Made by a program: the position numbers and the translations under genes
Assembly (NCBI GenBank): GCA_002729885.1
Contig: PBUB01000004.1
Location: forward strand, 1 to 64,000
Direction of reading: 5' to 3'
DNA: 64,000 nt
From: Spirochaetaceae bacterium
Lineage (GTDB): Bacteria; Spirochaetota; Leptospiria; Leptospirales; Leptonemataceae
Notes under the pieces: model-generated
Told to the model about the DNA's origin: nothing
Seen by the model: only the letters and a program-made list of their open reading frames with translations
Database searches by the model: none
Shown: in pieces, positions 10,713-12,445 of the stretch
Layout: every line of letters starts with the position of its first letter
Numbering within the stretch: the first letter of the stretch is position 1

Positions 10713-11975
10713 TCAGATAAATATGTTGATGATCCAGGAAATGGCCTGTCCCACGATGCTGTCGCTTAGCCAGCGCTTCAGATCAACAGGGTTTCTGTTC
10801 AGGGAATCGTAATACCAGGCAGCGTATTCACTGGCCTGAGGAATGTTTACGCCATACTGACGATTGATGTCTTTGATCAGCTCATTTGCCAGAACGGTGT
10901 GACCGTAGCGGTTCGGGTGAACTCCGTCCAGACCGAATACACCGGGTTTTCCGGGCAGTGGCCAGTTGGCTCCTGCGGTTCCGGGGCTCCATCCGCTGGA
11001 ATGCTGAATTGGTCGGCCATTTTCTTTGATGTCTGCGAAAATAGCTTCTGCATCTGTAAGAGCATAGTTACGAGCCGCGGCCTGACGACGCAGTTCATTG
11101 TTCAGCATGGTCAGGAAGTTGGTGATAGTAGCTACCTCACCGGCATCCAGAACATGATCAGGGCTGGAAACTCCACTTCTATAGAAAGCTTTCAGTCCGC
11201 TGTAGTTCGCTCGACCATTGGGATCGTTATATCGCTCCAGATAGTAGATAGAAGTAACATTTGGCACAGTAAAGACGCTTCCACCTTTGACGGTTCCTAT
11301 GTTGTCCAGCCGACGCATTACCTCGGCCACATCTCTCTTGAAGCGTGCTTCATCCAGGCAATCCAGGGTAGTGCTCAGAGCCGTACAGAGTACGTGGTTG
11401 GCACCTACGGATGCGAAAACAAAGCTAGGCTTTACTTTTTCCATGATCTGGATTTGAGTTCCAGCATCACGAAGACCAAATCTGTGGAATTTATCCGGCT
11501 CCTGGCAATCCTGGACTTCTACCCAGCGATATGTGTACCAGTACCATTTCTTCCAGTACCAGTCTTTTACCCATTTTTTGGCATAGATATCTTCGCATTT
11601 GCCGCTGGTTCGCAGCACAGAAGTATACTCTGCACCGGTAATACCGGCATGCGTGGGCAGACTGTAGGTTTTTTCATTACCACCCAGAACTGAAGATGCG
11701 AGGCAGAAAACTCCGCAATCCCCTTTCAGCACATCTTCCAGGTTAGCATAAGGTCCTTTTAGTTCATTGTAGTATACATTAGATCCAGCTTGCTTACTAA
11801 CAACGACAGGATAGGCCCAGTTCTGTGTCTTTTTCTCGACTGTTACTCCGTAGAAACCCTGAGACAGGGAATCACCCATAACAGCCGGTCTGTTGAAAAG
11901 CTCTGACACAGACTGAGCAGAAATTGAAGTGGCACTTACCAGAAGGGCGGCCACAATCCATCGACCCAGTTTCAT
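10713..11975 (-). CDS. SGNH/GDSL-type hydrolase, exported
   Basis: Block [15 protein letters not shown], and [10 protein letters not shown]; signal peptide [21 protein letters not shown]; start placed at 11975 because of the GGAGGAG RBS (ORF is open further upstream through the repeat). Confidence 0.82.
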
Positions 11976-12005
11976 ATACACTCCTCCGTATAGGTACGCT
12001 CGCTC

Positions 12006-12266
12006 GGATGCCTCGTGCATCCTCGCTCCCGTTTTATATTCAAAACCAGCCCTTCGGGCTGGCAAAACATCCTGTTTTGGCGGGCCTTCGGCCCTTGCGA
12101 ACTCGCCGCTCTCGGCCGTCCTGGCCTTCGCGGCACTAGAACTTCCTGTTCAGCGTCCTGTTCGCAGCAAAGTGTACTGCACTTTGCTCTTTCGGTAGCT
12201 GGGATGCCAGTGCATCCTCGCTCCCGTTTTATACTCAAAACCAGCCTTTCGGGCCGGCCAAGCATC
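12006..12266 (-). repeat. hairpin array with 56-bp direct repeats (units 12016-12071 and 12211-12266), candidate structured 5' leader or CsrB-like RNA element
   Basis: At least eight perfect or near-perfect hairpins in about 215 nt and two direct-repeat units (about 51/56 identical); four CAGGANG motifs on the minus strand. Confidence 0.8.
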
Positions 12267-12375
12267 GTCTACGGGCTATCCACCCGATTATAACCGTCAT
12301 CCTGGAGGCTATACCTCCCGGATATTTTGTGTTCGATCTCTATATCTATTGGTATAGAAAACGTGACACGGTGTC

Positions 12376-12405
12376 ATGTTAAGGGTATAGGTTGAGCCTG
12401 CGCAA
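12376..12405 (-). promoter_or_regulatory. possible sigma70-type promoter (TTGCGC-N18-TAACAT) upstream of the hairpin array
   Basis: -35-like GCGCAA (+ strand 12400-12405) and -10-like ATGTTA (12376-12381), adjoining a TGACAC-G-GTGTCA palindrome at 12364-12376. Confidence 0.3.
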
Positions 12406-12445
12406 GAAAAAATTACATCGTGTCACCTTTAGGGACGAAAAAAAA

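Follow-up and report, generated by a model that had tools for sequence, protein, structure and literature searches.

A REP/BIME-like structured repeat array with CsrA-type loops in the putative leader of an SGNH hydrolase gene from the phylum of Leptospira

The chain of hairpins ahead of a lipase-like GDSL/SGNH hydrolase gene in the metagenome-assembled genome of an uncultured Spirochaetaceae bacterium (Leptonemataceae) represents a new structured repeat family that has the habit of REP/BIME elements and includes a module, R1, carrying CsrA-type loops. Judged by sequence, the reading that we tentatively prefer for this array, which lies in a 64,000-nt stretch of DNA (hereafter the window), is that of a REP/BIME-like repeat array serving as a cis-acting leader bound by CsrA. 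The array combines R1 with a second repeat, M2, and covariation shows the stem structure of both to be under selection.

The hairpin array and its locus

On the minus strand, the array is flanked 5′ by a trehalose-phosphate synthase/phosphatase gene of the same strand and 3′ by the hydrolase gene, the array's 3′ end lying just ahead of the ribosome-binding site (Table 1; genes were called as long ORFs, and the genomes are drafts). A conserved block with two palindromic sites is located between the trehalose-phosphate gene and the array in four species. This layout, with a conserved promoter/operator upstream and a ribosome-binding site immediately downstream, fits the 5′ leader presumed in an earlier interpretation made from the sequence alone (the sequence-only reading): because it lies between a putatively regulated promoter and the SGNH start codon, the array would be transcribed as the 5′ leader of the SGNH gene. 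A hairpin array occupies the same SGNH site in five congeneric species and is absent at more distant homologues of the gene. The two TGACA..TGTCA-type palindromes 5′ of the SGNH gene (window 12364–12425) resemble TTGACAAAAATGTCAA, found near the gene in the distant homologue L031, which suggests that a conserved regulator may act on the SGNH gene.

Table 1. Features of the array and its surroundings in the window
Feature	Position	Strand	Basis
GDSL/SGNH hydrolase gene, 420 aa	10713..11975	-	Pfam PF00657, 26.7 bits
Ribosome-binding site ACGGAGGAGT	11980..11989	-	sequence; kept in orthologues
M2 unit 2 (complete)	11993..12079	-	R2 covariance model, 84.6 bits; this copy is among the R2 seeds
M2 unit 2, order: CAAAAC-AGGAT-GTTTTG, CCAGCCC-GAA-GGGCTGG, spacer, ACGGGAG, GGATGC-ACGAG-GCATCC, GAGCGAGCGTACC	11993..12079	-	
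M2 unit 1 (variant), R1 inserted in first hairpin	12082..12188	-	sequence, fold
M2 unit 1 hairpin GGGCC-GAA-GGCCC	12082-12094	-	sequence, fold
M2 unit 1 hairpin arms GCGAAC and GTTCGC, loop holding the R1 module; they close the junction domain around 12154-12160	12160-12165 and 12097-12102	-	sequence, fold
R1 module, paired hairpins	12105..12151	-	R1 covariance model, 72.9 bits; this copy is among the R1 seeds
R1 hairpins GAAC-AGGAA-GTTC and GCCGC-GAA-GGCC-AGGAC-GGCC-GAGA-GCGGC	12105..12151	-	sequence
Fourth heptamer, CAGGACG, placed in the junction of the domain that bears R1 rather than in a hairpin loop	12154..12160	-	sequence, fold
M2 unit 1 hairpin AGCAAAGTG-CAGTA-CACTTTGCT	12166-12188	-	sequence, fold
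M2 unit 0 (degenerate): GAA-loop hairpin, spacer, ACGGGAG, GGATGC-ACTG-GCATCC, CAGCTACC	12189..12274	-	R2, 24.1 bits
Perfect palindrome TGACACCGTGTCA, putative operator at the promoter 5′ of the array	12364..12376	-	conserved in four species
Second related site, imperfect TGACA..TGTAA	12413..12425	-	conserved in four species

The eight hairpins and four CAGGANG heptamers that the sequence-only reading had assigned to the minus strand were all found where it had placed them. Three of the heptamers do sit in hairpin loops, as it had described, whereas the fourth is single-stranded in a multiloop junction. Four CAGGANG within 261 nt arose in 0 of 20,000 shuffles, three AGGAN-loop hairpins likewise in 0 of 20,000, and nowhere else in the window do even three CAGGANG fall within 261 nt of one strand. 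Folding of the minus strand from 11960 to 12290, which that reading had proposed as a check, gave −141.2 kcal/mol (z = −6.2, better than every shuffle), and the leader from 11975 to 12360 reached z = −8.5. Since the plus strand comes close to this (z = −7.6), folding alone is uninformative on the strand.

The direct repeats described around the core are real (57 nt at 12015–12071 and 12210–12266, 91% identical) and stem from M2 unit 0: the array consists of about 2.5 head-to-tail M2 units, and one M2 hairpin carries R1 within its loop. In the congener G004, the matching hairpin, GCGAAC-AGGAT-GTTCGC, is free of the R1 insert. A genome-wide DNA similarity search for further copies, also proposed earlier, returned the array itself as the sole clear match in its own genome; covariance models were needed because diverged stems hide the copies from such a search.

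Two covarying repeat families

R1, modelled on the 47-nt core at 12105–12151, is present in 38 of 120 genomes scattered through the phylum (four copies in this genome, 44 in G004 and 44 in G085, which is less closely related within the phylum), while R2, the covariance model of the repeating M2 unit, finds 19 matches here, 14, 2, 11 and 43 in four congeners, and outside the genus one marginal match each in two other genomes only. M2 is thus an intergenic structured repeat nearly restricted to this genus, and the interspersed repeat family with CsrA-type sites that the sequence-only reading had offered as one option is indeed seen in the relatives. Plasmid, phage and E. coli collections held no convincing copy. 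Neither R1 nor M2 is in Rfam (above its cut-offs) or in the literature searched, where nothing was found on CsrA with REP repeats or on Leptospira palindromes.

Across 70 distinct R1 copies, 98.1% of the pair cells in the stems are standard, and double changes number 200, compared with 57 in shuffles; for M2, 95.7% of cells are paired, with 439 double changes against 131. Both alignments were fitted to their own models, and sliding controls collapse. The loops of the two families behave differently. In R1, nearly all of those in the 70 copies read C-AGGAN-G or C-ANGGAN-G, a census that is ascertainment-biased because the model itself contains GGA loops; ANGGAN hexaloops are nevertheless common in the second hairpin, although the seeds there had pentaloops only, and a loop-blind search, run on sequences partly fetched with the R1 model, found A(N)GGAN in 40 of 45 cases (one match in shuffled sequence). 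In M2, GGA occurs in 42 of 90 first-hairpin loops and 50 of 90 third-hairpin loops, and AYGAN (mainly ACGAN in the first hairpin) in 26 and 12 of 90, respectively; the second-hairpin loops read C-GNA-G with any N. Conserved stems with unconserved loops, a pattern that the sequence-only reading had named as speaking against itself, therefore apply to M2 and not to R1. In an unbiased loop census over 857 kb of this genome, GGA-loop hairpins with long stems were too few to serve alone.

Between tandem genes, as called from ORFs, 11 R1 copies are sense, 15 antisense and 6 mixed, i.e. without sense bias, and copies also occur in inverted pairs and, in G085, within MITE-like elements with terminal inverted repeats. 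Short elements of this kind with R1 inside were seen in G085 and G110 (L125–L129, L209–L214, L217, L223), their inverted ends being of three or more kinds (CCCTCCCTTGATGGGAGG; GGGGTCGGGCTATCCC; CAGTTT.CTGAAAAA). In the congeners G001 and G004 (L056:1490–1625, L055:1340–1580), R1 elements adjoin tRNA genes and have on their opposite side an apparent duplicate of the tRNA 3′ end, as after integration there; in G033 (L132:1494–1807), the space from one tRNA gene to the next is taken up by six tandem R1 copies at intervals of ∼53 bp. In G085, R1 follows a TPP riboswitch (56.7 bits) on the same strand, about 170 nt on (L126:1670–1983). Hairpin arrays also lie inside or against genes resembling XRE-type helix-turn-helix regulators (L123:4498–5127 and L244), the former array forming one continuous ORF with the XRE-type gene.

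M2 arrays in tandem-gene contexts are sense in 18 and antisense in 6 cases (n = 24), a bias that falls to about 8:3 and is not significant once orthologues are collapsed by eye. Such arrays were seen 5′ of a FliM/FliN-type flagellar switch gene (L286, L297) and of citrate synthase (L298, L312), each in two congeneric genomes, and in this genome a second array, built of three units in tandem with loops reading ACGAT, immediately precedes a DinB-like gene (C2:425604–425865; L023:1600–1866). Might M2 be a structured cis-regulatory RNA whose unpaired ACGGGAG and GAGCGTACC serve to recognise a partner other than CsrA? Both segments are nearly invariant whereas the stems covary, and arrays end 4–30 nt from several start codons, and several arrays recur at orthologous genes of two or three species (genes matched by length and, for some, also by Pfam). 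Yet, the downstream genes are functionally unrelated and several of the arrays run antisense or lie between convergent genes, and we consider such a role very unlikely.

CsrA and the competing readings

The genome encodes CsrA (PF02599, 88.7 bits), a point that the sequence-only reading had wanted checked, and csrA adjoins fliW, which suggests a protein antagonist of CsrA (PMC8668096). As CsrA is near-universal in the phylum (110 of 120 genomes), co-occurrence cannot test the link between repeat and protein. Three motif-bearing genomes (G119, G107 and G007) are without csrA and fliW, most simply because the operon is missing from draft assemblies, so that the absence of csrA is powerless as a refutation.

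The three A(N)GGAN loops and the one junction GGA of the array match the CsrA/RsmE site: RsmE binds ANGGAN, CsrA bridges sites 10–63 nt apart (PMC7652899), and binding by Leptospira biflexa CsrA requires GGA in the loop (PMC8668096). In L. biflexa, motif-based prediction has yielded a CsrA-like ncRNA (PMC4863578). About 25 nt separate the paired loops of R1, a spacing that would suit one CsrA dimer. In the leaders of the five congeneric SGNH genes, GGA-loop hairpins number 14 in sense and none in antisense, although these are orthologous leaders rather than 14 independent events. In the stems, G-U exceeds A-C by 19:4 in M2 and 15:3 in R1, about 5:1, suggesting that the GGA strand acts in single-stranded form.

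Close behind the CsrA-bound leader, and possible if somewhat less probable, comes a pure DNA role, in which the array is a REP/BIME- or MITE-like repeat whose hairpins persist because, as single-stranded DNA, they undergo recognition or processing, and whose loops are unrelated to CsrA. The C-GNA-G loop follows a known rule for extra-stable DNA mini-hairpins. Such loops, together with the ACGAN loops, the random orientation of R1, its copies in MITE-like elements and inverted pairs, and the apparent insertions at tRNA gene ends, all speak for this role, as does the fact that G-U makes up only about 2% of stem pairs. By the same token, the lack of sense bias in R1, its presence in MITE-like elements of G085 and the frequent ACGAN loops of M2, which are not a CsrA site, count against the leader. 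On the other side, a role in DNA alone leaves the detailed fit of R1 loops to the RsmE/CsrA consensus, down to the optional N and the closing C-G pair, and the common orientation of the array at the same leader in five species to be accounted for, and no mobilising enzyme was found for it. RAYT (Y1_Tnp) is absent from this genome and from all listed members of its family, and only one of 30 Y1_Tnp loci tested elsewhere had a significant R1 match nearby; mobilisation by a RAYT in the window's family is not supported on these grounds.

The array shares CAGGA(U/C/A)G hairpin loops with CsrB, CsrC and RsmX/Y/Z, and these could bind CsrA alike. The sequence-only reading had accordingly counted a CsrA-sequestering RNA of CsrB type among its candidates. 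To such a sponge acting in trans, the four CAGGANG motifs (three in loops), the encoded CsrA and the best Rfam match over the region, CsrB (RF00018, E = 0.014), lend some support. However, that match reaches only 17.4 bits, below the 71-bit gathering cut-off, and the array has only three or four sites against the 22 GGA sequences of E. coli CsrB (PMC7652899). It is also part of a dispersed repeat, and instead of an sRNA layout it has that of a leader, with a ribosome-binding site right behind it. Further, only about half of the M2 loops hold GGA, R1 occurs in both orientations, and the neighbouring fliW suggests a protein antagonist (PMC8668096). A dedicated sponge is therefore very unlikely, and this part of the earlier interpretation is not supported.

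TwoAYGGAY (RF01731), of the same Rfam clan as CsrB (CL00106), has a pair of hairpins whose loops read A(Y)GGA(Y), with tandem G-A in the stem, and is predicted to bind CsrA (PMC4333381). R1 resembles it in its paired hairpins and a tandem G-A in the stem; its loops are ANGGAN pairs in many copies elsewhere and AGGAA and AGGAC pentaloops in the window copy. R1 differs in its 4-bp stems, frequent pentaloops, dispersal and occurrence in the phylum of Leptospira. The TwoAYGGAY model had no match in this genome, and the best relative, G085, reached 37.7 bits against a cut-off of 43. With GTAG-/CGTC-tagged REP/BIME/REPIN sequences (PMC3733652), the family shares short intergenic palindromes, arrays, inverted pairs, compensated stems and some intragenic copies, and the dispersed short intergenic palindromes that mark REP/RAYT systems were recovered by both the R1 and R2 searches. 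Unlike these, its units are composite and multi-hairpin and its A(N)GGAN loops are constrained, and inspection of the M2 alignment by eye showed neither a GTAG nor a CGTC tag at the hairpin foot. Falling below the CsrB and TwoAYGGAY cut-offs and being REP/BIME-like without a RAYT, the family was therefore filed as new.

CsrA-bound mRNA leaders such as those of glgC and Leptospira flaB likewise have a hairpin-loop GGA 5′ of the ribosome-binding site, a kind of loop that Leptospira CsrA binds (PMC8668096); unlike them, the array offers several tandem-repeat sites, at least about 80 nt upstream and without Shine-Dalgarno overlap. In the preferred reading of a CsrA-bound leader, CsrA tethered to the leader would act in cis, altering how accessible or how stable the SGNH message is. 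Titration of CsrA in trans, if any, would be a side effect, and the repeats would spread and turn over like REP/BIME hairpin repeats, unlike an sRNA gene.

Implications for Csr regulation

CsrB-like RNAs are established mainly in Gammaproteobacteria, and Leptospira reportedly has none. A more far-reaching idea, which we consider rather unlikely, is that R1 is a mobile CsrA-docking pair of hairpins. Its dispersal across the phylum, in part as a passenger of other mobile elements, would then have planted sites for CsrA dimers in leaders and rewired the Csr regulon of bacteria for which no CsrB-type antagonist RNA is known. If the loops bind CsrA, this would be a repeat family that spreads CsrA sites. 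If they do not, near-perfect CsrA motifs can arise for DNA reasons, which would call for caution when sRNAs are predicted from motifs. In both cases, R1 and M2 constitute two covarying structured repeat families.
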